NCBI GenBank assembly: GCA_017519415.1
Contig: JAFWSI010000002.1
Span: 1-32,450, forward strand
Origin: Ruminococcus sp.
Lineage (GTDB): Bacteria > Bacillota > Clostridia > Oscillospirales > Ruminococcaceae
Reading direction: 5' to 3'
DNA length: 32,450 nt
The translations under genes and the position numbers were made by a program. The notes under the pieces were generated by a model. That model saw nothing but the letters and a program-made list of their open reading frames with translations, made no database searches and was not told the DNA's origin. Shown piece after piece: positions 2,736 through 30,178 of the stretch (position 1 is the stretch's first letter; every line of letters starts with the position of its first letter).

Positions 2736-4133
2736 TTATTTCTTAGCAAAGACTTCTTCTTCGATTATCCTGATATTCTCATCTCTGTCGATCTGAAGCA
2801 CACTGCCCACATCAACATCCTCGTCGTAATATGTTCCCTCGGCGGGGATACGTACCTGCTTTGTGGCATACCTTGCAGCAAGCGGCGCTCTCAGTGAGAG
2901 CAGATAAGCCTTGAGCGTGGACATATTGGTAGAAATATCGGGTATAACGTCCGAAGCAAGATTTTTGAACATCGACGGCCTGAATGTCCTGAGCTTAGCA
3001 ATTATAAGTGAGAGCACCCTGCGCTGTCGTTCTGTGCGCTCGAAGTCGCTGTTTCCTACTTTTCTTATACGTGAGTAGGAAAGGGCCTGTTTGCCGTTGA
3101 GGTGCAGTTTCCCGCCGCCGTCAAGGAGGTCTGACATTCTGTCGTCGCCCATAAGCTCGTTTACCTCCGAGATAAGGATAACGTTAATTTCTTCAGCCTC
3201 TGCGTCGGAAACTTCAATATCAACGCCGCCAACTGAATCTACAAGGGAGACAAAGGAGGCAAAGTCAACAGTCACATAGTCGTCTATTCGGACGTCGAAG
3301 TTGTATTCGAGGGTGTCCATAAGAAGCTCGGGACCGCCGAAGGCATAGGCGGCATTTAGCTTGTTCCAGCCGTTGTTGGGGATCTCAACATAGCAGTCAC
3401 GCATGAATGAGGTCATTATTATCTCGTTGGTCTTGCTGTTGAGGGAAACAAGGATCATTGAGTCCGAACGCCCCTGTTCGTCGGCGGAACGTCCGTCGGT
3501 GCCTATGATAAGGAAGCTCCTTACATAGCCCCTGCCCACTGAATCCGCATAGTGGGTACGGCTGCCGGAAGGCTTGTGCTCCATTTTGTTTATGAGTGCA
3601 ACTGAGGTACAGGAATATATGCCGAAAAGCAGCAGGAAAAGTATAATGATGATACGAAGTATTCTTCTGATTATCCTTCCTGTCAGCGATTTGTGACGGT
3701 GTTTTTTCTTTTTGCGGACAGGCTTTTCAGTTTCCGAGTCTGTATCGCGCTTAGGTCTCGGAGGCCTGCTCGGCTGCGCCATGGGAGGCGGAACGGCGGG
3801 CGGCGGAGCCTCATTGCCTGTGCTGCTGTTGTCTACGTACCACTGCGGAGGCTTGTTATTGTAGTCATAATACCCTGGCTCCTCGGGGGAGTGCTGCTGA
3901 GCCGGCTGCGGTATTGCAGGTGGCTTGCCTGACTGAGGAAACTGAGGAGGATCGGCAGTATAATCTGTCTTTGGCTTCTGCTTAGCGGAGCCTGCACGGC
4001 GGTTTATCCTTTTAAGCTGAGGCAGCTCCGACCGGGGAGGCTCGTCGGGAAAGCCGCCGGGTATGAGCATTGTATCCTCGTCGTCTGTATTTTTTATGTT
4101 GTCTGACTCTCTGCCGTTATATCTGTATGGCAT
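2736..4133 (-). CDS. LytR-CpsA-Psr (LCP) family cell-wall glycopolymer ligase
   Basis: LCP proteins are membrane-anchored phosphotransferases that attach teichoic acids or capsule-like polymers to peptidoglycan. The 465 residues comprise a proline-rich, disordered cytoplasmic tail (about 1-135), a basic cluster KKKKHRH, one membrane helix (about 155-178) and an extracytoplasmic LCP domain (about 207-380). Recognisable LCP marks are IGTDGR, RSDSMILVSLN, FMRDCYVEIP, KLNAAYAFGG, VGGVDIEV and ALSYSRIR followed by FERTERQRR. The tail is long for the family. The start is the ATG at 4131-4133 with AAAGGAG seven bases upstream. It is the last gene of the operon with rlmB and the degenerate P-type ATPase, ending at a terminator. 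The family is certain; the polymer transferred is unknown. Confidence 0.9.
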   Translation of the reverse strand: MPYRYNGRESDNIKNTDDEDTMLIPGGFPDEPPRSELPQLKRINRRAGSAKQKPKTDYTADPPQFPQSGKPPAIPQPAQQHSPEEPGYYDYNNKPPQWYVDNSSTGNEAPPPAVPPPMAQPSRPPRPKRDTDSETEKPVRKKKKHRHKSLTGRIIRRILRIIIILFLLLFGIYSCTSVALINKMEHKPSGSRTHYADSVGRGYVRSFLIIGTDGRSADEQGRSDSMILVSLNSKTNEIIMTSFMRDCYVEIPNNGWNKLNAAYAFGGPELLMDTLEYNFDVRIDDYVTVDFASFVSLVDSVGGVDIEVSDAEAEEINVILISEVNELMGDDRMSDLLDGGGKLHLNGKQALSYSRIRKVGNSDFERTERQRRVLSLIIAKLRTFRPSMFKNLASDVIPDISTNMSTLKAYLLSLRAPLAARYATKQVRIPAEGTYYDEDVDVGSVLQIDRDENIRIIEEEVFAKK

Positions 4134-4203: not shown

Positions 4204-6738
4204 TTATGTTTTTTTCAGGCTTACCGCCAGGTATGTAAGGGCTGTCCAGGCTATATTGTATACTGTCATGGCTGTAGCCGACATATATACATAGTTGGAC
4301 TGAAAGGCCTTTGACAGTATCAGGAGCATACAAAGCACGAAACCGAGAAGGATAGAAGCAGTCTGAAGGATCAGGCCGATTATTGCCGAGAAGTGTACGA
4401 CCTTGGTGCCGATAAGAAGCTCGGCAAGGGAGGCGAATTTACCTGTCGTCGCCATGGAAGCGCTCAGACGGACGGATTTTTTTGTTTCCTCGTAGAAATC
4501 CTCATGCAGCTTCTTGGGGAGTATCCTTGCCATATCCTCCGGTATACCGAAGAGCCTGTTGAGCTTTTTTACTGTTATGCACGGGTCTATGCTCTTGATG
4601 AACATGCATATCTTCTGCTTGCAGAGCTTTTTAGCCCATTTTTTTACATATCTGTCAGCCACCATGTCAACTATGAACATAGCAGCGAGATTTCCCGATA
4701 TGGAAAGGTACATAACGTCCTTGTTGCCGTCTACGAGCTCTGCTTCCTGGGTCTTTGTGGGAACTCCCTCGATATTATGACTTGTCATGAGCTCGCGGTT
4801 GCCGAAGAGAACCCGCTTGTTGTTTATCCAGCCGCACATGCCCATTCCTTCCTCATAGGAGTAGTTCTCTATAGGATAGAGGGCGCCGTTGCGGCCTGCT
4901 ATGACATCTGTAAAAAGCTGGGACATGGTGCTGCCTGCGGTTGAAGTCAGACTTGCGGCTTCAAGGAAGGCCTCGTCAAGCTTGGTGTTGGAGAACACCT
5001 TTATTCCGTCAAGTCTTACCGTTCCTTCGGGGAACAGGGCATTTGCGTCTATGAGTATCGAATTGGTATCGTAGAAATCGTCAACGCTCTGATAGCCCAG
5101 CATTATGCCCTTGTTTTTTATGGCGCTGTTTGAAACGTTATCAAGTGGTATATTCACCACAAAGGGGATAGCGATGCAGGACGTAGCGCATATGATCATA
5201 CTGAATATGGAAAAGCCGAATGCTGCTGCGTCAAGACTTGCAAATGTTCCCTTGCAGAAGAACGTAAGGAACAGCGATACCAATATCGAAGCGATAAGAC
5301 ACAGCGGAGTGGCCCTGCGGCAGAAATCGTCCGTCATATCCGAGGAATATGTATATCTCAGGAAATCCGTAAGGAAGTCGGTTTTGCGCATGGAAGCAAG
5401 AATGGGGAAATCACCGAGGGTTCCTCTTGTAATCCTTTCCGCGCGGTCCTCGTCCTTTACATAGGTAACACCGTGACGGTCGAAATTCTTGGAAACGAAT
5501 TTGAAGTTTCTTGCCGCTCTTCTTATGATAAGCAGCTTGCCCACTGAATTGATGAGCAGGGCAAGAATGCCGACGGGCATATAGATATGTATATTTTCAG
5601 ATCCGACGAGCTGAGGCCTGAGAAATGCGGGGATAATGGCGATAAGACAGGACAGAGCCGTTACTGCTGTCATTGAATCGCTGTCTGCCTTGAGACTGAA
5701 CAGTTTTCTTACGCCCTTTGTTATCACCGCAAAGGAACAGAGCACTGAAATGATACCGAGTACAAGATGTGCGGTGAGATATGTCCTGATATGGGACATA
5801 CTGAGTATATCGAGTATAGGCCACTGGAACTGATTGGATACAGTGATGAAAAGATTCAGGAAAGCGGTCATTGCAAGAATGACAACTCTTACAGATATGG
5901 TGCTTTTCAGCTCGTATATATCCCTTCCTACATCTTCGACGTCACCGTAATAATTGAAATCGACTATTCTTTTTGTCCGCTTGTTCTTTGAGCGGACCGA
6001 CATGAATTCGTCCGCTTCCTGTGTGATGTGGACATCGAGCTGTCCTGCGTCCACAGGAGCCTTCTCGCTCAGATTGATGCTTGTGAGCTCTGCTCTCGGA
6101 GCAGGCTCAACAGGCTTGGCTGCTTCAACAGCAGCTGGTGAGGGGACGATGTCGGTTATCTGCTTTTTGCCCTCGGGACTTTCTGCCTCTCTTATTATCT
6201 GTATACGGCTGCGCTTTTTCTTTTTGAACTCAGGAGGAGTGTACATATACTCTCCTTCCGGAGTTTCGCGTGCGTAGGTATATTCGTTGTCCTTATCCCT
6301 GCGGTTTTTCTTCCGCTTTTTCTTTTCACTCTTTATTTCCTTGGCGCGGGTGGAGTCGCTCATACGCCTTATCTTCGGCGCCTCGTCGGGAGTCATCTGC
6401 ACGGGAGTTATAGTTCCCGTGGGAGTGATCTTCCTCTGGGGATTGGTGCGGATCTCGCTCATCGCGTCTGCGCTTACCACGGCTATCTTATGCCTTGAGA
6501 GGTCGGCGGGTTTCACGTCGTCCGCGGGCTCGTCATTGCGGAGCGCGTTATCGAAGAGAGCGGATTTTTCATGGGATATGGGAGGCCTTGACTGAGCGGC
6601 TTTCACTAAATCAGGGGACTCAATGGTAGAATTTATTATTTTCTGGGCATCAACTCTGCCCACTTTGGTTTTAGGTTCATGATTTCCGGGAGAATACTCG
6701 TCCAGAATATCCTCCAGCAAGGGTTTCTGTTCCGGCAT
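4204..6738 (-). CDS. Degenerate P1B-type ATPase-like membrane protein (putative pseudo-ATPase)
   Basis: The 844-residue product has a long charged cytoplasmic tail (1-275, very Lys-rich near 134-180), then eight predicted membrane helices (about 280-300, 318-341, 356-374, 386-405, 476-495, 503-530, 783-808, 818-840). This is the helix count of P1B metal-transport ATPases, with the soluble region between helices 6 and 7. Remnants of the family line up: CATSCIAIPF (517-526) where CPCALGLATP is expected; GIMLGYQ; IDANALFPEG (563-572) where FDKTGTLTEG is expected, keeping Asp564 but losing KTGT; GMGMCGW and VLFGNRELM of the nucleotide domain; MFIKSI (712-717) for MLTGDN. The TGE actuator loop and the GDGxND hinge are not recognisable. 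Catalysis as a pump is therefore unlikely. The start is the ATG at 6736-6738 with AAGGAG six bases upstream. Its operon partners are rlmB and an LCP ligase, which suggests a cell-envelope role (inference). Confidence 0.72.
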   Translation of the reverse strand: MPEQKPLLEDILDEYSPGNHEPKTKVGRVDAQKIINSTIESPDLVKAAQSRPPISHEKSALFDNALRNDEPADDVKPADLSRHKIAVVSADAMSEIRTNPQRKITPTGTITPVQMTPDEAPKIRRMSDSTRAKEIKSEKKKRKKNRRDKDNEYTYARETPEGEYMYTPPEFKKKKRSRIQIIREAESPEGKKQITDIVPSPAAVEAAKPVEPAPRAELTSINLSEKAPVDAGQLDVHITQEADEFMSVRSKNKRTKRIVDFNYYGDVEDVGRDIYELKSTISVRVVILAMTAFLNLFITVSNQFQWPILDILSMSHIRTYLTAHLVLGIISVLCSFAVITKGVRKLFSLKADSDSMTAVTALSCLIAIIPAFLRPQLVGSENIHIYMPVGILALLINSVGKLLIIRRAARNFKFVSKNFDRHGVTYVKDEDRAERITRGTLGDFPILASMRKTDFLTDFLRYTYSSDMTDDFCRRATPLCLIASILVSLFLTFFCKGTFASLDAAAFGFSIFSMIICATSCIAIPFVVNIPLDNVSNSAIKNKGIMLGYQSVDDFYDTNSILIDANALFPEGTVRLDGIKVFSNTKLDEAFLEAASLTSTAGSTMSQLFTDVIAGRNGALYPIENYSYEEGMGMCGWINNKRVLFGNRELMTSHNIEGVPTKTQEAELVDGNKDVMYLSISGNLAAMFIVDMVADRYVKKWAKKLCKQKICMFIKSIDPCITVKKLNRLFGIPEDMARILPKKLHEDFYEETKKSVRLSASMATTGKFASLAELLIGTKVVHFSAIIGLILQTASILLGFVLCMLLILSKAFQSNYVYMSATAMTVYNIAWTALTYLAVSLKKT

Positions 6739-6748
6739 AATCTTCTCC

Positions 6749-7537
6749 TTATTCGGCCTGACTGCGCTGTCTGAGCACCTCGTACATAAAGATGCCCGCA
6801 GCAACAGATGCATTAAGCGAATTGATCTTTCCCAGCATGGGAAGCTTTATCATAAAGTCACATTTTTTCTGTATAAGTCTGCTTATCCCGAAGCCTTCCG
6901 AGCCGATGACAAGAGCTATGCCGCCTGTCATATCGGTTTTGGAATAATCGGTGCCCGAAGCATCTGTACCGTATATCCATACTCCGTTTTCCTTGAGCAT
7001 ATCTATACATGATGCAAGATTTGATACTCTTGCCACAGGTACGTAGCTTGCAGCTCCTGCCGATGTCTTGAACACTGTCGCATTCAGGGAAGCGCTCCGG
7101 CGTTTTGGTATTATAACACCGTCGGCACCCGCGGTCTCGGCAGTACGTATTATAGCGCCGAGATTATGAGGATCCTCTATCTCGTCGCAGATGATTATAA
7201 AAGGCTTTGTGCCTTTTTTACGGGATACTTCAAGAATATCCTCAGCTGTCACATATTCTCCGCAGGCGCCCTCTGCGACTACTCCCTGATGGGAAGCGCC
7301 GCCCGCAAGGCGTGAGAGCTTCTTGTCGTCGGCGTCCTTTACAACAACGCCTTTTTCCCTGGCAAGTCTGCGGATGACTCCGAGACTTCCGCTGCTTCCG
7401 TCAATATAGATCGTATCGAGATTAGCGCCTGATTTAAGGGCTTCGATAACGGGATTGCGTCCGCAGATAAGATTTTCGTTTTTTTCGGTCATATTTATAT
7501 CTTTTTCCATATCAGCCGTCAGGCGCGAAACGCCCAT
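6749..7537 (-). CDS. rlmB: 23S rRNA (guanosine-2'-O-)-methyltransferase RlmB/TrmH family
   Basis: This is a SPOUT-class, SAM-dependent 2'-O-ribose methyltransferase; RlmB methylates G2251 in the peptidyl-transferase P-loop of 23S rRNA. It shows the N-terminal substrate-binding piece ENLICGRNPVIEAL and the three knot motifs: EDPHNLGAIIRTAE, VIGSEGFGISRL and LNASVAAGIFMYE. The longest frame gives 262 residues. The start is uncertain: AAAGGAG ends only one base before the ATG at 7537, so the ATG at 7510 or 7492 (MTEKNENL) may be used, and the last best matches family length. It is the first gene of the operon with the ATPase-like and LCP genes; its stop is 10 bases before the next start. The sister enzymes TrmH/Gm18 or a general YacO-type enzyme cannot be excluded. 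Confidence 0.85.
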   Translation of the reverse strand: MGVSRLTADMEKDINMTEKNENLICGRNPVIEALKSGANLDTIYIDGSSGSLGVIRRLAREKGVVVKDADDKKLSRLAGGASHQGVVAEGACGEYVTAEDILEVSRKKGTKPFIIICDEIEDPHNLGAIIRTAETAGADGVIIPKRRSASLNATVFKTSAGAASYVPVARVSNLASCIDMLKENGVWIYGTDASGTDYSKTDMTGGIALVIGSEGFGISRLIQKKCDFMIKLPMLGKINSLNASVAAGIFMYEVLRQRSQAE

Positions 7538-10361: not shown

Positions 10362-11135
10362 TCAGACGCTGTCTTTTATTTTTTGTATAGCACTTTTTTC
10401 AAGACGGGATACCTGCGCCTGGGATATACCGATCTCGCTTGCAACCTCTACCTGGGTCTTGCCGTTGATGAAACGGCTGTACAGGATATTCCGTTCGCGC
10501 TCGTTGAGTCCGTTTATTGCGTCTCGTATGGATATTTCTGTCATACGGCTGTCAACGTCGCAACTGTCGCTTATCTGATCCATGACATAGAGAGTATCGT
10601 CGTTATCGGAGAAAACAGGTTCATACAGTGATACGGGATCACTGATGCTCTCGAGAGCAATGACCACGTCCGCACGCTTGGCTCCTATCTCGGCGGCTAT
10701 TTCCTGAATATCGGGTTCGCGTTGCAGGGCGGCGGTGAGCCTGTCCTTTGCCTGTATCGCCTTATATGCAAGATCTCGCATGGAACGGCTTACCTTTACG
10801 TGACTGTTGTCTCTGAGATAGCGTCTGAGCTCGCCACTTATCATGGGGACGCAGTATGTGGAGAACCTGACTTCCTTGCTGAGGTCGAAATTGTCTATTG
10901 CCTTCATAAGACCGATCACACCTATCTGAAAAAGATCGTCAATATCGTCGCAGCGGCTCGTAAAGTGCTGGATAACGCTGAGCACAAGCCTGAGATTGCC
11001 TTTTATTAGCTTATCCCGTGCAGCCCTGCTGCCTGTTTCTCTGATTTCCTTTAAAAGAGCGATCTTTTCATTTTCCCTCAGTACTTCGAGTTCCGAGGTG
11101 TTTATACCTGCAATGACCACCTTATTGTATGCCAT
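10362..11135 (-). CDS. sigG: RNA polymerase sporulation sigma factor SigG
   Basis: This sigma-70 factor of 257 residues contains regions 2, 3 and 4: NLRLVLSVIQHF and DDLFQIGVIGLMKAIDNFDL (region 2), RFSTYCVPMISGELRRYLRD, a region 3 from about 110, and a C-terminal helix-turn-helix TQVEVASEIGISQAQVSRLE. The N-terminal NKVVIAGINTSELEVL is characteristic of SigG, the late forespore factor, rather than SigF. The start ATG (11133-11135) has GGAGG seven bases upstream; the frame extends 20 residues further without a site. It is monocistronic and is not next to spoIIGA-sigE as it often is in clostridia. A SigF-like -10 sequence precedes it. The family is certain; SigG over SigF rests on the N-terminus. 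Confidence 0.9.
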   Translation of the reverse strand: MAYNKVVIAGINTSELEVLRENEKIALLKEIRETGSRAARDKLIKGNLRLVLSVIQHFTSRCDDIDDLFQIGVIGLMKAIDNFDLSKEVRFSTYCVPMISGELRRYLRDNSHVKVSRSMRDLAYKAIQAKDRLTAALQREPDIQEIAAEIGAKRADVVIALESISDPVSLYEPVFSDNDDTLYVMDQISDSCDVDSRMTEISIRDAINGLNERERNILYSRFINGKTQVEVASEIGISQAQVSRLEKSAIQKIKDSV

Positions 11136-11164
11136 GATATATCCTCCGTAATGAATTACAAGGA

Positions 11165-11193
11165 TATTATTGCCGCTGAGATACTCTGTAATC
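11165..11193 (-). promoter_or_regulatory. Possible SigF-type promoter of sigG
   Basis: On the minus strand GGCAATAATA (11165-11174) fits every fixed position of the published SigF -10 pattern GGnnAnAnTw. The only -35-like element, GATTA (11189-11193), is imperfect and 14 bp away. In Bacillus sigG is transcribed by SigF, which makes the match meaningful but not proven. Confidence 0.4.
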
Positions 11194-11211
11194 ACAGGGA
11201 AAAAATGGCAT

Positions 11212-18577: not shown

Positions 18578-19654
18578 ATGAAAAAGGTAATGGTCGGTAT
18601 GAGCGGCGGAGTTGACAGCTCTGTTGCGGCAATGCTGCTAAGAGATGCGGGATACGAGGTCATGGGCGTGACCCTCAAGCTTTTCTCCGACGAGGACATA
18701 TCAGAGGCGAAAAAGGAGGGAAAGACCTGCTGTGCGCTTTCGGACGTTGAGGACGCAAGGAGCGTGGCTTACCGTCTCGGCTTCGAGCACCTCGTTTTCA
18801 ATTTCAGGGACGTTTTCCGAAAATACGTCATGAAGCAGTTTGCGGATAGCTACCTATGCGGACGTACTCCCAATCCCTGCATTGAGTGCAACCGCCATGT
18901 AAAGTTCGATAAAATGCTCAGGAGAGCGCAGGAGCTGGGTTACGATTACATAGCCACGGGACACTACGCCGTGAACGAATATGACGAGAAGCGCGGCCGC
19001 TGGCTGCTGAAACGTCCCGCAGACCGCAGCAAGGATCAGACCTACGTTTTGTACGCTCTCACTCAGGAACAGCTCTTCCATACGCTTTTTCCGCTGGGCA
19101 GCCTTGAAAAGTCACAGGTTAGGGAGCTTGCGGAAAAGGCGGGACTTGTGAACTCCAACAAGCCCGACAGTCAGGACATATGTTTCGTTCCTGACGGCGA
19201 TTACGCAGCTTTTATCCGCAGATTTACCGGCTGTGATACACTCTGCGGAAGCTTCGTCGATATGGACGGAAATGTCCTTGGTGAGCACAAGGGCATCATC
19301 AACTACACTATCGGACAGCGCAAGGGACTGGGTATAGCGCTCGGACGTCCTGCCTACGTTGTTAAAAAGGACATTGCCGCAAATACGGTCACTCTCGGTC
19401 TGGAGTCTGATCTGTACACAAAAAGTCTTATCGCCGATGATTTCAACCTTATTTCCGTTGAAAAGCTTGAAGCTCCCATGCGGGTGACCGCAAAAACACG
19501 CTACAGTCAGAAGGAGCAGCCGGCTATCGTATCAAGTCTCGGGAACGGGGAATACCTGATTGAGTTTGACGAGCCTCAGAGGGCGGTAACAAGCGGGCAG
19601 GCGGTAGTTCTCTACGACGGAGATATTGTTGTAGGCGGAGGTACCATAAAATGA
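18578..19654 (+). CDS. mnmA: tRNA-specific 2-thiouridylase MnmA
   Basis: MnmA thiolates U34 of Lys, Glu and Gln tRNAs using ATP and a persulfide sulfur from a cysteine desulfurase. The 358 residues match family length. Visible are the PP-loop GMSGGVDSSVAAMLL at the N-terminus, GRTPNPCIECNRHVKF with Cys101, TGHYA, KDQTYVLYAL and DSQDICFVPDGDY with Cys202; the two cysteines are the catalytic pair. A C-terminal beta-barrel follows, with YTIGQRKGLGIA. The start ATG at 18578 has AAAAGGAG eight bases upstream. Its stop overlaps the next start by four bases (ATGA), so translation is probably coupled. Confidence 0.97.
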   Translation: MKKVMVGMSGGVDSSVAAMLLRDAGYEVMGVTLKLFSDEDISEAKKEGKTCCALSDVEDARSVAYRLGFEHLVFNFRDVFRKYVMKQFADSYLCGRTPNPCIECNRHVKFDKMLRRAQELGYDYIATGHYAVNEYDEKRGRWLLKRPADRSKDQTYVLYALTQEQLFHTLFPLGSLEKSQVRELAEKAGLVNSNKPDSQDICFVPDGDYAAFIRRFTGCDTLCGSFVDMDGNVLGEHKGIINYTIGQRKGLGIALGRPAYVVKKDIAANTVTLGLESDLYTKSLIADDFNLISVEKLEAPMRVTAKTRYSQKEQPAIVSSLGNGEYLIEFDEPQRAVTSGQAVVLYDGDIVVGGGTIK

Positions 19655-20664
19655 CGAAAACGGTACTTCTTGTTATAGACGCGCAGGAGCTCATAACCAA
19701 CGAAAGGCTTTATGCTTTTGATGAATATATCGAGAATGTCCGCCAATTAATAGCAGAATCGCGCAAAAACGGCATAGAAGTCATCTATGTCCGCCACGAT
19801 GACGGCGTGGGACAGCCCCTCTCCAAGGGGAATAATGGCTTCGATGTGTGCAGGGAGTTTGCTCCCGAGGCAGGCGAGCGTATCTTCGATAAGTCCGTGA
19901 ACAGTCCTTTTCGTGACAGCGGACTGCTTGAATATCTGCGGCAAAAAGGTGTGAAAAGGCTCATTGTTACTGGTTTGCAGACCGATTACTGCATAGATGC
20001 CACTGTGAAATGCGGTTTTGAGCACGGCTTCGAGATGATAGTTCCCGAATACTGCAATTCCATATTTGACAATGACTTTATGACAGCGGAGCAGACTAAC
20101 CGCTATTATAACGAGTTTATTTGGAAAAACAGGTATGCAAACTGCGTTTCTATTGCGGAAGCTCTTGAAATGATACAGAATAACAAATATGAGCCGAAAA
20201 AAAGGAATACTAAAAAGGCACATTACATCAGAAGAGCGACAGAAGAAGACGTTTCGAGAATTGCGGAGATACTTGTTTTTGCAAAACGAATGAAGTATCG
20301 TTCAATTTTTAAGGACGATTTGTACGCATTTGGTGAACTACAGGTGCTTTCTGTGGCTGAAAAGTACATTGAAAACGGATTTCTTAACAATATGTTCCTG
20401 TATGATGACGGAATAATAAAAGGTCTTATCCGCATTGATAAAGAAGAGATCCTTGAATTGTATGTCGATCATTTCTTCCAGGGGCAGGGAATAGGCTCGG
20501 AATTAATAGAATTTGCCAAAGAAACCTCTCAGGTAAGTTTTCTTTGGACAATTGAAAAGAATACTGATGCTATACGTTTCTATGAAGCACATGGTTTCCA
20601 TCTTACAGACAACAGGAAGTTGGAAGAAGGAACTACAGAATATATTGTAATGATGAGAAACTGA
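19651..20664 (+). CDS. Isochorismatase-family cysteine hydrolase fused to a GNAT acetyltransferase
   Basis: The 337 residues hold two domains. Residues 1-175 form an isochorismatase-like hydrolase with the triad Asp10 (VIDAQE), Lys81 (FDKSVNS) and Cys114 (LQTDYCIDATVK), typical of nicotinamidase and other amidohydrolases. After a Lys-rich linker (179-190, EPKKRNTKKAHY) comes a GNAT N-acetyltransferase (about 191-337) with the acetyl-CoA motif QGQGIGSEL (277-285) and a normal C-terminal half (NTDAIRFYEAHGF). The base composition falls at the junction near 20200: the GNAT half is clearly more A/T-rich, which suggests a later fusion. The start overlaps the mnmA stop. The substrates of both domains are unknown. 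Confidence 0.85.
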   Translation: MTKTVLLVIDAQELITNERLYAFDEYIENVRQLIAESRKNGIEVIYVRHDDGVGQPLSKGNNGFDVCREFAPEAGERIFDKSVNSPFRDSGLLEYLRQKGVKRLIVTGLQTDYCIDATVKCGFEHGFEMIVPEYCNSIFDNDFMTAEQTNRYYNEFIWKNRYANCVSIAEALEMIQNNKYEPKKRNTKKAHYIRRATEEDVSRIAEILVFAKRMKYRSIFKDDLYAFGELQVLSVAEKYIENGFLNNMFLYDDGIIKGLIRIDKEEILELYVDHFFQGQGIGSELIEFAKETSQVSFLWTIEKNTDAIRFYEAHGFHLTDNRKLEEGTTEYIVMMRN

Positions 20665-24264: not shown

Positions 24265-24289
24265 AGATAAATGAAAAGGAATGATTGTT

Positions 24290-26818
24290 TTGAAGATCGG
24301 TTTTTCAACGCTTGCATGTCCCGACTGGTCGTGGACTGATATATATTCGATAGCTAAGGATTTCAAATTCGACGGCATCGAGATAAGAGGTCTCGGCAAC
24401 GAGATATTTTCTGTGAAAGCACAGCCCTTTACAGAGGCTCAGCTGCCTAATACTATTGCCAAGCTACAGTCGCTGGGACTTGAAATTCCTTGTCTATCAT
24501 CAGGTGCATGCCTTAAATTCAAGGACAAGTATCAGGAAGCCGAGAACGAGGTAAGGGCTTATGCGCAGCTTGCAAGCAAGCTCGGAGCTTCATATATCAG
24601 AATACTGGGCGACCTTGAACCTGCCCCCGGCGGCGATGTTGACGATGACTATATCATAGAGACTTTAAAGAAGCTTGCTCCCATAGCCGAGGAGTACAAT
24701 GTAACACTTCTTGTTGAGACAAACGGCGTTTACTCCGATACAGCACGTCTTGCAAAGCTCCTTGACAGCGTGAACAGCCGCAAGGTAGCAGCTCTGTGGG
24801 ATATGCATCATCCCTACCGTTATCACAATGAAGCGCCCGAGACTACTATCGCAAATCTCGGCGAGTACATAAAATACATACAGGTCAAGGACAGCGTCAT
24901 GCGCGAGGACGGTACGGTTGAATACCGTATCATGGGTACCGGAGATATTCCTGTCAAGGCCATGATAGAGGCTCTTGACACTATCAACTACAACGGCTAC
25001 ATCACTCTCGAATGGGTAAAGCGCTGGGCAAGGAATCTCAGCGACGGCGGAATTGTTATCCCGCAGTTTGCCGAGTATATGTCTCCCTACAAGAAGTCTC
25101 ACAAACATCCTCTCCAGACCAATATGAGAGGCGACGGTCAGTATCCGTGGCCGAAGGAGCGTATCCTCAATTACACCTTCCCTGATATACTTGACCGCAT
25201 ATGCGAGCAGTTCCCGAATCAGTATGCTTTCCGTTATACCGAACTTGACTATACAAGAACATATCCCGAGTTCCGTGACGACGTTGATACCTTTGCTCGT
25301 TCACTCCTTGCAATGGGCGTAAAGAAGGGCGACCACGTTGCTATCTGGGCTACGAACGTTCCTCAGTGGTATATAACCTTCTGGGCTACCACAAAGATAG
25401 GCGCGGTGCTTGTTACCATGAACACGGAATACCGCATTCATGAGGCCGAGTATCTGCTGAGACAGTCCGATACCATGACTCTTGTTATGATAGACGGTAT
25501 CAAGAATATCAATTACGTTGATATCATCAAGGAGCTCTGTCCCGAGCTGGAGACCTGCGAGCCGGGAAAGCTCAATTCCGCAAGACTTCCTTATCTCAGG
25601 AATGTAATAACCGTTGATTCCAAAAATAACGGCTGCTACACATGGGACGAAGCTGTGGCGCTTTCAAAAAACGTTCCTTACAGCGAGGTGGAGCGTGTAA
25701 GAAAGACCATAGATATACATGATGTCTGCAATATGCAGTACACCTCGGGAACTACAGGTTTCCCCAAGGGCGTAATGCTTACACATTATAATGTAGTAAA
25801 CAACGGTAAGGCTATCGGAGATTGCATGGATCTCTCCACGGCAGACCGCATGATGATACAGGTGCCTATGTTCCACTGTTTCGGAATGGTGCTCGCAATG
25901 ACTGCTTCCATGACGCACGGTACGACAATGTCGCCTATAACCAGATTTTCGCCGAGAAAGGGACTTGCCTGCATAAATAAGGAAAAGATAACCTGCTTCC
26001 ACGGAGTTCCTACCATGTTCATTGCTATGCTTGGACATGAGGACTTCCCCAAGACCGACTTCTCACACATGAGAACAGGTATCATGGCAGGCTCTCCCTG
26101 TCCTATAAAGACTATGGAGGAAGTTGTCGAGAAGATGCACATGAGCGAGATCTGTATAACCTACGGTCAGACCGAGGCTTCTCCCGCAACGACCATGAGC
26201 AAGACCACAGATACCCTTGAACAGCGTGTAAATACAGTCGGAGGTCCTATATTCGGCGTTGAGTGCCGTATTGTCGATCCCGAGACAAATCAGGAAGTTC
26301 CCGATGATGTTGACGGCGAGTTCGTGGCAAGAGGTTACAATATAATGAAGGGCTATTACAAAATGCCCGAGGCGACGGCAGCCGCTATCGACAGCGAGGG
26401 CTGGCTCCACACAGGAGACCTTGCAAGACGCCGCTCCGAGGACGGATATTTCAAGATAACAGGCCGTATCAAGGATATGATAATCCGCGGTGGCGAGAAT
26501 ATCTACCCCAAGGAGATAGAGGACTTCCTCTACACCTATCCGAAGGTCAAGGATGTTCAGGTAATAGGCGTTCCCGATGAGGACTACGGCGAGGAGATAA
26601 TGGCTTGTATAGTTCTTCAGGACGGCGAGACTGCTACCGAGCAGGAGATAAAGGACTTCTGCCTTGCAAGAATGGCAAAGCACAAGTGCCCGAGATACGT
26701 TGACTTTGTAGACGGCTTCCCCATGAATGCCGCAGGAAAGATACTGAAATACAAGATGAGAGAACAGGCAGTTGAAAAGCTGAAGCTCCATAAGGCAGAC
26801 AGTATCGTTACTGCATGA
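24290..26818 (+). CDS. Sugar isomerase/epimerase domain fused to AMP-dependent acyl-CoA synthetase
   Basis: This 842-residue protein has two whole domains. Residues 1-275 are a TIM barrel of the sugar phosphate isomerase/epimerase (xylose isomerase-like) family. Expected metal ligands Glu143 (LLVETNG), Asp171 (WDMHHP) and Glu241 (TLEWVKRW) are present, but Gln198 in YIQVKD stands where His is usual. Residues 300-842 are an AMP-forming acyl-CoA ligase: TSGTTGFPKG (485-494), YGQTEASP (625-632), HTGDL with Asp710, GRIKDMIIRGGENIYP, and the C-terminal catalytic Lys817 in AAGKILK. The ligase resembles fatty-acyl-CoA synthetases. I prefer the TTG at 24290 (MKIGFSTLACP is family-like, AAAAGGA nine bases upstream); an ATG at 24281 is one base from that site. 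It is last of the run from 22434. The combined reaction is unknown. Confidence 0.88.
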   Translation: MKIGFSTLACPDWSWTDIYSIAKDFKFDGIEIRGLGNEIFSVKAQPFTEAQLPNTIAKLQSLGLEIPCLSSGACLKFKDKYQEAENEVRAYAQLASKLGASYIRILGDLEPAPGGDVDDDYIIETLKKLAPIAEEYNVTLLVETNGVYSDTARLAKLLDSVNSRKVAALWDMHHPYRYHNEAPETTIANLGEYIKYIQVKDSVMREDGTVEYRIMGTGDIPVKAMIEALDTINYNGYITLEWVKRWARNLSDGGIVIPQFAEYMSPYKKSHKHPLQTNMRGDGQYPWPKERILNYTFPDILDRICEQFPNQYAFRYTELDYTRTYPEFRDDVDTFARSLLAMGVKKGDHVAIWATNVPQWYITFWATTKIGAVLVTMNTEYRIHEAEYLLRQSDTMTLVMIDGIKNINYVDIIKELCPELETCEPGKLNSARLPYLRNVITVDSKNNGCYTWDEAVALSKNVPYSEVERVRKTIDIHDVCNMQYTSGTTGFPKGVMLTHYNVVNNGKAIGDCMDLSTADRMMIQVPMFHCFGMVLAMTASMTHGTTMSPITRFSPRKGLACINKEKITCFHGVPTMFIAMLGHEDFPKTDFSHMRTGIMAGSPCPIKTMEEVVEKMHMSEICITYGQTEASPATTMSKTTDTLEQRVNTVGGPIFGVECRIVDPETNQEVPDDVDGEFVARGYNIMKGYYKMPEATAAAIDSEGWLHTGDLARRRSEDGYFKITGRIKDMIIRGGENIYPKEIEDFLYTYPKVKDVQVIGVPDEDYGEEIMACIVLQDGETATEQEIKDFCLARMAKHKCPRYVDFVDGFPMNAAGKILKYKMREQAVEKLKLHKADSIVTA

Positions 26819-26935: not shown

Positions 26936-26965
26936 TAATATTATATTTTGGAAAGGGGACATAAC

Positions 26966-29900
26966 ATGAGTAAAAAGATCAGAAAAGCTTCAGCGGTCAT
27001 TTCCGCTGCTGTAATACTTTCAGCAGCTTTTCCCTCAGAGGCAGTTGCAGGGGTACTGCCTTTCGGCGGAGAAACTGATAAAAAAGGCGCAGTGGTTTCG
27101 GCGCAGGCCGGTTGCTGTTCAATCCCGGAATTCCGTATGGTCAGAGGCGGGGACGGAGTCAGACCCGAGCCTGTTATAGGCGCTTTTTCGGTAATGAAGA
27201 ATGCTGCCGCAGAGGCCGGCGACCTCCCGAAGAGCTTTGACATGAGGGAAAGCTTCGGGGTTCCTTCCGTAAAGGATCAGGGATCTTACGGTACCTGCTG
27301 GGTATATGCGGCAGTTGCGAGCGCTGAATCGAGCATGATCTCTTCGGAGCCGTCAATAGATCTTTCCGAGCTGCATTCCTCCTTCTACTCTTATTACGGA
27401 GAAGATCAGATAGAGCCTGTCAGCCAAAAATATGAATCCATACTCAGTGAAGGCGGTACTATCCATATGATAACCAATCTGTGGGCACAGTGGATAGGTC
27501 CTGTCAGGGAGGAAAGGTTTCCGTATGAAGAAAAGGCGGTATTTGACGATCCTGCTGAGTTGCAGAACCGCAAGTATCTTTATGATTATCATATGAAGAA
27601 TGCCTATTACTTTGACTTTAACGATGACAGAAGCAATTTCGAGGATGTAAACGCAACTATCAAGCAGTTTGTCGGCAGCGGTCTTGCAGTGGATGTCTCT
27701 TATATGTCAGATAAATCTATAAACTTCAACAATATATACTTTACGTCAAATTCTAAGCGTCGTCCCAGATTTGCCAATCATGCCGTTGCGATCATAGGCT
27801 GGGATGATGAATTCCCCGCGGCAAAGTTCAAGAATTCTCCTGAGGGGGACGGAGCATGGCTGTGCAAGAACAGCTGGGGCACCACGGAAAGCGACAAGGG
27901 CTATTTCTGGCTCTCATACTATGACAGGACCATGTGTGAATTTGCGGTATATGAGATCGAAAACTCCGATGAGCACGCATATATTTATCAGCACGATACC
28001 TATCTCCCTATACAGAATCTTTCGGCGTATGATACGGCCGAAGAGAACGGCCCTTCATATATGTCGAATATCTTTGACTCTGTCGGAGAATCCATGATAG
28101 ATGCCGTATCTACTTATATAAACTGTCCGGGCACTGAATATGAGATAACCGTTTATACAGACCTGAAGGACGAAAACGATCCGACGTCGGGAACTCCGTC
28201 GGCGGTAACAAAGGGAAGATATGATAAGACAGGTTATTTCTGCATAGATCTTGACGAGCCTGTGCATGTGGATAAATCAGAGAAATTCAGCGTGGTGGTA
28301 AGGCTTTACTGCGAGGATGATCCCTTTGTGATTCCTCTTGAAAGCAGTATATATGCTCAGGACGACGAGGGTACGATTATTGACATAAGCAGTTTTTCAA
28401 AGGATAAGAATATCAGGAAATTCACCGCCCGCAGCCAGAGCTTTTACAGCACCGACGGACAGGAGTGGAAGGATGTCTGCGACGGAGCGATTGTTTACAC
28501 CGATGAGGAGGAGAAAGTCCTTTTCGAGAAGCTTGTTGATCAGCTTTATGACGGACTTGAGGATACCGATACAGAACTGATGAAATATGCCAAGGAAAGC
28601 GAAGCTGCCTATAAGGATCTCTTTGACAACGGAACAGTAAAGGTAACTCTCGGAAACATTTCACTCAAGGCGTACGGAAATCCTGTGGATAAGGTTTTCT
28701 TCTCCGAGCCTGCGGGCAGTATCTCCGCCGATAAGAAGGTGGAGCTCAGAACAGACAGCGGAGCAGAGATATACTATACCCTTACCTCCGGTAAAACCAA
28801 GTCTGATCCCATAAAGTATACAGAGCCCATCGCAATTACCGATGATGTTACCGTGAGTGCGTACTGCAAGGGCTCGGTGCAATCCTTTGAGAGGCATTAT
28901 TATCCGAAAAAGGCGGAAATGATATTCATAGGCTATGACATATCTCCTTCATATTATGTAGGCAAGCTTAATTACGCAAAAAGGACAGCAGCTGACGAAT
29001 TTGAGATTGCCCTTTCACCCACTCAGGACAGGCTCTCTCTTTATATAGGTACTAACTGCAAAGTACTCATGGACGGCAAGGAAACAGACACCTATACCCT
29101 TACAGAACCTATATTAACTGATGTTTCGGGAAAAGAGATTCTTTTTGAGCTTTCGGGAGAGGGCGTGCCCGATAATCAGATAAAGCTGCGTATTGTGAAG
29201 AATTTAGTGGGCTTCGATCTCGAAAATGAGACTATAAATTATACTGTTGCGGATATGATATATGCTCCCAACGGCGACGAGCTCAGCCTCAATTCCAGCG
29301 TCAGCGAATTTGCGGGTGAGGAGCTCACCGTACTTAAGCAGGACAAGGAGCTCAAGGTCAAAGTGCCGGAAAGAAGGCAATTCGGCGAGCTCAGCATTAA
29401 TTACAAAAACGAGGTCATAGGACCGTTTGATTCGGAAGAGGCGGAGCTCCTTGTATTCAGAACAGGAAATGAGAAAAAAGAGTTCAGATCCGCCAAGGGA
29501 CGCTTTGTCCATGGAGAAGATGTGGACGGACTCGAAAACGGAAGTATCTATATTTCGGTTATACCGGGTGAAACTCTGACATTTAAGCTCAGGGGCGGAA
29601 ATGATATGTTTGATAGCGAGGAGCTTGAACAGGTTATCCCCGAAGCTCCCTCAATAGCGCCTGTAATAAAGTATTTCGAGCCGGTCGACGCCAGTCACTG
29701 CGTTATCCCTGCAAATATGGGAGTGGAGGCATCTGCGACGGGAAAGCTGAACGAAATGCTGTATGAAGCGCTTGCCGAAGATTACGGCTATGAGAAGTAC
29801 GAATTCGATGTGATACTTTCAAACCGCTTTAAGGCCGATCTTGAAGCAAGCTGCTATGTGGGATCGAAATTTGAAAAGGAGCTTCCGCTCGAATACGGCA

Positions 29901-30178
29901 AACTTTATCTTGTACGCTATCCCGCTACGGATAAAAGCTTTGCGTCGGTCGCTACGGCATTCTATCCCCGTGCAAAGGGCGATGTTAATCTTGACGGATA
30001 TGTTGACGCGGTAGACGCTTCAATGGTGCTTTCCTATTACGCCATGGTATCGACGGGAAAAGAAGGGGAGTTCACCGACATACAGAGGGCGGTCGCCGAT
30101 ATGGACGATAACGGTATCATTGACGCGGTCGATGCTTCGGATATACTTGCTGTCTATGCAAAGTTGTCTGTATCGTGA
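26966..30178 (+). CDS. Dockerin-bearing papain-like (C1A) cysteine protease
   Basis: The 1070-residue secreted protein starts with a signal peptide of about 28 residues. A C1A protease domain (about 90-325) follows, with Gln105 and Cys111 in KDQGSYGTCW, His272 in NHAVAIIGWDD and Asn302 in CKNSWGT, a full papain set. Next are a lectin-like beta domain (about 335-480), a chitobiase-type beta-sandwich (about 577-645; GAEIYYTLTSG, VSAYCKG) and further unassigned beta-rich sequence. The C-terminal dockerin (about 1004-1070) has two Ca-binding repeats, DVNLDGYVDAVDAS and DMDDNGIIDAVDAS. A dockerin docks to cohesins of a scaffoldin, so the protease is probably cellulosome-borne. The start ATG at 26966 has AAAGGGG seven bases upstream. 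No terminator separates it from the next gene. Confidence 0.93.
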   Translation: MSKKIRKASAVISAAVILSAAFPSEAVAGVLPFGGETDKKGAVVSAQAGCCSIPEFRMVRGGDGVRPEPVIGAFSVMKNAAAEAGDLPKSFDMRESFGVPSVKDQGSYGTCWVYAAVASAESSMISSEPSIDLSELHSSFYSYYGEDQIEPVSQKYESILSEGGTIHMITNLWAQWIGPVREERFPYEEKAVFDDPAELQNRKYLYDYHMKNAYYFDFNDDRSNFEDVNATIKQFVGSGLAVDVSYMSDKSINFNNIYFTSNSKRRPRFANHAVAIIGWDDEFPAAKFKNSPEGDGAWLCKNSWGTTESDKGYFWLSYYDRTMCEFAVYEIENSDEHAYIYQHDTYLPIQNLSAYDTAEENGPSYMSNIFDSVGESMIDAVSTYINCPGTEYEITVYTDLKDENDPTSGTPSAVTKGRYDKTGYFCIDLDEPVHVDKSEKFSVVVRLYCEDDPFVIPLESSIYAQDDEGTIIDISSFSKDKNIRKFTARSQSFYSTDGQEWKDVCDGAIVYTDEEEKVLFEKLVDQLYDGLEDTDTELMKYAKESEAAYKDLFDNGTVKVTLGNISLKAYGNPVDKVFFSEPAGSISADKKVELRTDSGAEIYYTLTSGKTKSDPIKYTEPIAITDDVTVSAYCKGSVQSFERHYYPKKAEMIFIGYDISPSYYVGKLNYAKRTAADEFEIALSPTQDRLSLYIGTNCKVLMDGKETDTYTLTEPILTDVSGKEILFELSGEGVPDNQIKLRIVKNLVGFDLENETINYTVADMIYAPNGDELSLNSSVSEFAGEELTVLKQDKELKVKVPERRQFGELSINYKNEVIGPFDSEEAELLVFRTGNEKKEFRSAKGRFVHGEDVDGLENGSIYISVIPGETLTFKLRGGNDMFDSEELEQVIPEAPSIAPVIKYFEPVDASHCVIPANMGVEASATGKLNEMLYEALAEDYGYEKYEFDVILSNRFKADLEASCYVGSKFEKELPLEYGKLYLVRYPATDKSFASVATAFYPRAKGDVNLDGYVDAVDASMVLSYYAMVSTGKEGEFTDIQRAVADMDDNGIIDAVDASDILAVYAKLSVS

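Follow-up and report, generated by a model that had tools for sequence, protein, structure and literature searches.

A P1B-ATPase-derived family of predicted pseudoenzymes encoded behind rlmB in an order of gut and rumen anaerobes

Among kinases, dead enzymes that have acquired new roles are a familiar phenomenon. For P-type ATPases, the pseudoenzyme case that we found in print is eukaryotic and disputed. The human protein TMEM94/ERMA is reported to have a P-type architecture in which TGES is absent and GDGxND is overwritten, and one study observed no ATPase activity (PMC12134183, PMC13322241). Another study claims ATP-dependent Mg2+ uptake for ERMA (PMC13322241). Here we describe a bacterial family, represented by a gene for an 844-residue membrane protein on the minus strand of a 32,450-nucleotide stretch of Ruminococcus sp. 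DNA (contig JAFWSI010000002.1, positions 1 to 32,450; hereafter the window). Its sequence predicts a pseudoenzyme descended from P1B-type metal pumps and shared by nearly all sampled members of the order. No published description of the family was found among the literature matches listed, most subscription journals lying outside the search.

Profile comparisons connect this protein to P1B pumps. Searched singly, it matched Legionella CopA (3rfu) with an E-value of 6.6e-8, and a profile built from 30 order-wide family members (alignment A1) matched the same structure with an E-value of 8.4e-36, mainly over the third and fourth membrane helices (M3-M4), the phosphorylation (P) domain and the nucleotide-binding (N) domain and only weakly over M1-M2 and M5-M6. 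An hhalign comparison of the family profile with 24 intact P1B pumps drawn from related genomes (alignment A4) was co-linear over 554 columns (Prob 100, E 1.7e-42), and its two large gaps correspond to the actuator core with TGES and to the GDGINDAPAL segment. The P-type match for residues 470-845 on which the initial annotation had staked its proposal was obtained by these comparisons. Curated models remained well below their cut-offs or silent: the NCBIfam heavy-metal models TIGR01525 and PRK10671 gave about 33 bits against cut-offs of 346 and 1316 (for TIGR01525 on the window protein, 32.3 bits against 346.25), a Pfam scan returned no match for the window protein or the family, and the actuator model PF00122 had no match at the family gene in 15/15 genomes. 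By sequence, the family is P1B-ATPase in descent. The initial annotation had also read eight membrane helices in P1B order. The order is borne out by the co-linear alignment, but a simple hydropathy scan places only seven helices above threshold, plus one peak within the soluble part, and the last helix is visible by alignment only. Predicted helix counts range from 6 to 11 among 56 members, with 8 the commonest (27/56).

Catalytic and metal-binding positions were tabulated for 56 sequences (the window protein, two genus members and 53 of the 55 fetched order-wide loci), with five intact pumps as controls; the split copies L032 and L045 were excluded. At the DKTGT columns, D is present in 17 rows, K in 0, T in 5, G in 0 and the last T in 0, compared with 5/5 in the controls. 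The reported loss of DKTGT, replaced by DANALF in the window protein, is consequently not the defect of one mutated copy, as no homologue examined has the motif intact at this site. Asp564, described initially as kept in the phosphorylation position, does lie in that column, but its retention as a functional site is not supported. Even within the genus the column contains D in 29, N in 5 and S in 1 of 35 distinct rows; with near-duplicates included, 16 of 65 rows have N, E, G or S there. The metal site is similarly altered. Cysteine occupies the two CPC cysteine columns in 2/56 and 0/56 rows (controls 5/5), and the Pro of this M4 site is present in 39/56. CATSC was correctly placed where CPC would lie, its last Cys falling on the CPC Pro column, but it is by sequence a genus trait and not an order-wide one; the string itself occurs in 42/65 genus rows (near-duplicates included), with variants in the others.

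The ATP-binding residues show the same pattern. The N-domain HP histidine and its preceding Glu are each found in 0/56 rows (controls 5/5 each), and two N-domain glycines are retained in 55/56 and 56/56. The Asp of TGD is also kept, in 55/56 rows. The earlier reading that TGDN had been replaced by IKSI was two residues off, as T-G-D-N aligns with S-I-D-P. The absence of TGE and GDGxND, on the other hand, was read correctly and reflects real deletions. The GDG columns of GDGxND are gaps in 56/56 rows. Between the TGD Asp and M5 the family has 44-53 amino acids (aa; median 50), compared with 81-82 in intact pumps. The M2-M3 loop in the actuator place measures 56-86 aa (median 69), compared with 134 in the five intact pumps. 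Given that these lengths are uniformly short across the family, the deletions look ancestral. In a string search of 120 family proteins (104 distinct), GDGxND was found in 0/120, DKTG in 1/120, TGE in 3/120 and TGD in 3/120, all of these away from the aligned sites and the sole DKTG within the disordered tail; DKTG and GDGxND were present in 25/25 intact pumps used as comparison.

Loss of catalytic residues fixed across the clade, combined with clear homology, identifies a P-type-derived pseudoenzyme family for which catalytic inactivity is predicted. We do not file the family as a P1B-ATPase, because defining features of that class were looked for and were absent. A haloacid dehalogenase (HAD)-type phosphatase reborn from the P domain was also considered. 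The columns that once held K and G each contain D in 31/56 rows, the window copy not being among them; the candidate was rejected because the motif IV segment is deleted in 56/56 rows and a D-x-D is missing from this site in the window copy.

The family forms a single deep clade. In a tree of the M3-to-N region, built from 25 intact P1B pumps and 20 family members chosen among those fetched, it split off at 100/100 on a stem that measures about two changes for each column, and removing the motif columns left its branch with a Shimodaira-Hasegawa-like approximate likelihood ratio (SH-aLRT) of 100 by a quick method. Long branches were flagged in this tree, which does not resolve the nearest pump subfamily. 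We infer a single loss of catalysis that preceded the radiation of the order. Named relatives (63-89% identity, 34 loci) come mostly from Ruminococcus flavefaciens and uncultured Ruminococcus, with the NCBI lineage Clostridia, Eubacteriales, Oscillospiraceae. We take the host order to be the one named Oscillospirales in GTDB.

Distribution was assessed by profile searches in genome sets of the family, order, class and phylum, which overlap. The gene gave one match each in 79/79 genomes of its own taxonomic family and was present in 142/147 genomes of the order. At class level, 12/12 order genomes matched over nearly the whole profile (317-632 bits), and a comparable score was reached in 0/279 other genomes of the class, where the best match (136 bits) covered part of the profile. 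Only 2/199 genomes matched across the phylum, both belonging to the order. A protein search of 99 relatives gave matches in 92, including 66/66 of the good genomes; the tally of 92 includes weak matches to true pumps, such as the sole matches of G041 and G086. The five order genomes without a profile match are G086, G474, G495, G506 and G529. In G086 the contig ends 419 bases after rlmB. The other four have no RlmB match above 54 bits, compared with at least 177 for loci with both genes, so that rlmB and the family gene are jointly missing, through either linked loss or assembly gaps. That two of these four genomes come from one genus favors loss. The rlmB and pseudo-ATPase genes are adjacent in G423 (0.7 Mb; locus L105) and G436 (0.9 Mb; L106), both 97% complete.

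The family is under strong purifying selection. Within the genus, the median ratio of nonsynonymous to synonymous substitution (dN/dS) is 0.035 for the family gene, 0.059 for RlmB, 0.087 for the LytR-CpsA-Psr (LCP) protein and 0.104 for a metallophosphoesterase, and the corresponding median dN values are 0.024, 0.023, 0.134 and 0.13. These values were obtained by the Nei-Gojobori method from 35 distinct genus rows at moderate dS, using 28-32 pairs per gene (32 for the family gene) that are not independent. By region, dN/dS was lowest in the former actuator loop (about 0) and highest in the last two helices (0.064), with a median of 0.023 for the tail and a value of 0.029 for the core, based on 43 pairs from 65 genus rows with near-duplicates included. 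The frame of 844 codons is intact, as first annotated, and runs from an ATG at 6738 to a stop codon ending at 4204. An AAGGAG (6750-6745) lies six bases 5' of the ATG and overlaps the rlmB stop codon. The initial conclusion that the protein is maintained and the gene is not dead agrees with the dN/dS of 0.035.

The order-wide sample comprised 55 loci, 35 taken from 23 families of the order outside the host's own and 20 representing genera of the host's own family. A same-strand rlmB lies directly upstream in 53/55 (52 by distance, plus L032, in which the family gene is split). Of the remaining two, L114 has about 2.7 kb between the genes, and L056 has no rlmB in its stretch, RlmB being encoded on another contig of the same genome. 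Within the genus, rlmB is upstream in 33/34 loci, and the 34th contig starts at the family gene. In the window, ten bases separate the end of rlmB from the ATG. The LCP gene is found downstream in 34/34 genus loci, a linkage seen in the genus only. Elsewhere in the order the downstream genes vary and include those for EF-G-like, glucosamine-synthase-like, Lon, Era-like and radical SAM proteins, among others (one or few representatives scanned). An EF-G-like gene lies at most two genes downstream in 10/51 neighbor rows; L033, L061, L111 and L121 are absent from that table, the family gene having been missed there in gene picking.

The N-terminal extension has a median length of 283 aa among members (range 21 to 682) and, judging by residue composition, is probably disordered. 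A motif of the kind FSLEDILAEF is present near the start of 30/55 order-wide members compared with 21/565 other open reading frames (ORFs) of the same loci; the regular expression was tuned on these very sequences, and the 21 include the front part of the L032 gene, which is split. A strict version of the pattern, run on four genomes, gave one match, inside the family gene of G423, and does not fit the copy in the window's own genome. A looser version gave 28 matches in ten genomes of the genus: nine in the family gene, eight at the C-terminal end of a short ORF of 105-125 codons and eleven scattered. The motif may resemble the N-terminal helix of alphaproteobacterial PopZ. A short ORF of 105-125 codons recurs in the genus (L158, L162, L163, L167, L169, L179, L180 and L181), with a conserved C-terminal end resembling FEAILEEFPxTIKITISEV.

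What might such a protein do? The initial annotation listed a sensor, a scaffold and a regulated membrane partner, of which we favor the scaffold. Because selection maintains the tail as well as the fold and the former actuator loop, we propose a non-pumping housekeeping membrane scaffold or adaptor, an assignment that we hold with about even confidence. The sequences show that a P1B pump gene lost its catalytic parts through deletion of the actuator core with TGE, overwriting of DKTGT and CPC, deletion of GDGxND and replacement of the ATP-binding His and Glu, and that the remaining membrane body and N-domain remnant form one clade, inherited behind rlmB in almost every genome sampled from the order. 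From the chemistry of the superfamily, the P-type cycle should not run, because the phosphorylation site, the Mg site, the dephosphorylation motif and the ATP ligands are absent. No aspartyl phosphate would form, no pump cycle would be possible, and the usual pocket would probably bind no ATP. The pump body could instead act as a static anchor whose N domain and short former actuator loop offer surfaces to the cytosol, and the disordered tail with its short helix-like motif may recruit a putative soluble partner. Cotranscription with rlmB would ensure production as a housekeeping protein.

Several observations weigh against a scaffold of this kind. The regular expression misses the tail motif in 25/55 members, and some members, with 21 aa, are nearly tail-less, indicating that tail recruitment is not general in this form. 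In the ten genus genomes, no recurring ORF of at least 100 codons other than the family gene carries the motif N-terminally. The TGD Asp, nearly invariant as described above, is not obviously needed by a pure scaffold. Finally, ERMA likewise lacks TGES and GDGxND, and one group claims that it transports Mg2+ with ATP (PMC13322241).

A bolder version of the scaffold proposal, which we put forward tentatively as the less probable one, is that this is a perhaps essential, order-defining protein whose P1B fold serves as a rigid membrane hub. Cytosolic partners would be recruited by its tail and its former actuator loop, and the protein would perhaps tie the ribosome, or the making of membrane proteins, to the membrane. 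We suggest that tie because of the steady link to rlmB and the recurrence of the EF-G-like gene.

Two alternatives seem to us unlikely, though worth weighing against a scaffold. In the first, the membrane part would be a passive or regulated channel or carrier that lets a small solute or lipid pass independently of ATP, the cytosolic remnant acting as its gate. Retention of the M4 Pro in most rows and of Trp561 in the last helix (at least 90% of 30 rows) would fit such a role. However, the M4 metal ligands are lost, and within the genus the dN/dS of membrane regions is no lower than that of soluble regions. In the second, considered improbable to a similar degree, the body would bind a ligand such as a metal, lipid or nucleotide and relay a signal by way of its tail or of the former actuator loop. 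The minimal dN/dS of that loop and the near invariance of the TGD Asp and the two N-domain glycines are consistent with a sensor or regulator. Beyond these residues, however, no parental ligand-site residues are kept, no regulator gene is constantly linked (the downstream genes vary), and the gene is retained in genomes that have only one PF00122 pump, so that the protein need not act for a set of metal pumps.

A sporulation role is very unlikely. It is suggested by the spore-forming host, by the SigG gene at 10362-11195 of the window, and by SpoIVA, which is found in 34/38 order genomes and 74/79 genomes of the host's family. Yet the gene is present in all five genomes of that family that gave no SpoIVA match, including G423 and G436, and in four order genomes without SpoIVA; these are drafts, in which single misses may be gaps. 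A role as helper of a metal-pump set, considered separately, was weakened by G423 and G436, which have one PF00122 match each and keep the gene. Persistence without SpoIVA and with one PF00122 match indicates that the gene is tied neither to sporulation nor to a large pump set.

We regard an ATP-driven pump that still works through altered chemistry as slightly more improbable again. The claim for ERMA offers a precedent (PMC13322241), and a D-x-D near the old phosphorylation loop occurs in 26/120 family proteins by plain string search of whole proteins. Against these stand the universal deletion of GDGxND, the phospho-Asp in 17/56 rows, the absence of K and of the N-domain His, and the lack of D-x-D at the site in the window copy. 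A decaying gene or annotation artefact can be dismissed almost entirely: two of the 55 order-wide copies are in two pieces in draft genomes, through sequencing error or real decay (L032, 4125-6557, +, by an in-frame TGA; L045, 7209-9445, +), but nearly all copies listed are full-length open frames, and recent decay is ruled out by presence in 142/147 genomes, a single deep clade and the dN/dS of 0.035. The scaffold or adaptor remains our preferred reading.

Table 1. Coordinates and basis of the features discussed, in window positions.
Feature	Position	Strand	Basis or remark
pseudo-P1B-ATPase gene	4204..6738	-	open frame, 844 aa + stop; family homology to P1B pumps
N-terminal tail, residues 1-270	5929..6738	-	low-complexity, charged (36% D/E/K/R); read as disordered
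tail motif LLEDILDEY, residues 7-15	6694..6720	-	motif count in order-wide members vs other ORFs
P1B-derived core, residues 271-844	4207..5928	-	eight putative membrane helices + remnant cytosolic domains
short cytosolic loop in actuator place, residues 406-477	5308..5523	-	without TGE; 69 aa vs 134
CATSC, residues 517-521, in place of CPC metal site	5176..5190	-	alignment with intact pumps
DANALF, residues 564-569, in place of DKTGT	5032..5049	-	alignment with intact pumps
N-domain remnant, about residues 591-690	4669..4968	-	glycines kept; HP histidine and its Glu lost
Asp718, equivalent of TGD Asp	4585..4587	-	55/56 rows; D448 of alignment A1
shortened second half of P domain, about residues 719-768	4435..4584	-	GDGxND deleted; 50 aa vs 81-82
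rlmB, directly upstream	6749..7537	-	TIGR00186, 249 bits (cut-off 160.15)
LCP gene, downstream	2736..4133	-	PF03816, 137.7 bits

Three other genes of the window, all on the plus strand, encode multidomain proteins. In the 845-aa frame at 24281-26818, a xylose-isomerase-like TIM barrel (PF01261) is fused with an AMP-binding enzyme that resembles acyl-CoA synthetases (PF00501, PF13193), a pairing that to our knowledge is unusual. The frame at 26948-30178 combines a papain-family protease with a lectin-like domain and a type I dockerin, and its product is probably a cellulosome-borne protease. At 19651-20664, an isochorismatase-like domain and a GNAT acetyltransferase share one frame.

The family, for which Pfam has no model, occurs as a single copy in almost every genome sampled from this order of anaerobic gut and rumen bacteria. 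Its gene could be used as a marker for that order, and the protein offers a chance to test directly what a pump fold does without pumping.

A second pseudo-P-type ATPase was encountered in family f19 of the order, where its gene lies just upstream of rlmB (L037:10554-12764, -; L038:11325-13784, -), so that two dead P-type ATPases flank rlmB. This protein likewise sits beside rlmB and lacks the DKTG, TGE and GDGxxD strings, but it is Na,K-/Ca-ATPase-like (1.4e-14 to solved pumps; NCBIfam scores far under cut-off), one of the two copies is above the PF00122 cut-off, and it was seen in two genera only. Compared with CopA-type P1B-ATPases (3rfu; TIGR01525, PRK10671), the family described here shares the co-linear helix order and is similar in the sequence of M3-M4 and of the P and N domains. 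It differs from them in having no CPC, DKTGT, TGE or GDGxND, in an actuator loop of half the length, and in carrying a long tail where those pumps have metal-binding domains. The nearest analogue in print would be TMEM94/ERMA, a likeness drawn from description: according to the reports cited above, this eukaryotic protein crosses the membrane with ten helices, retains a DKQGI loop together with an actuator-like domain, and is disputed in its activity, whereas the present family is bacterial and has lost the actuator core and the phosphorylation motif alike.

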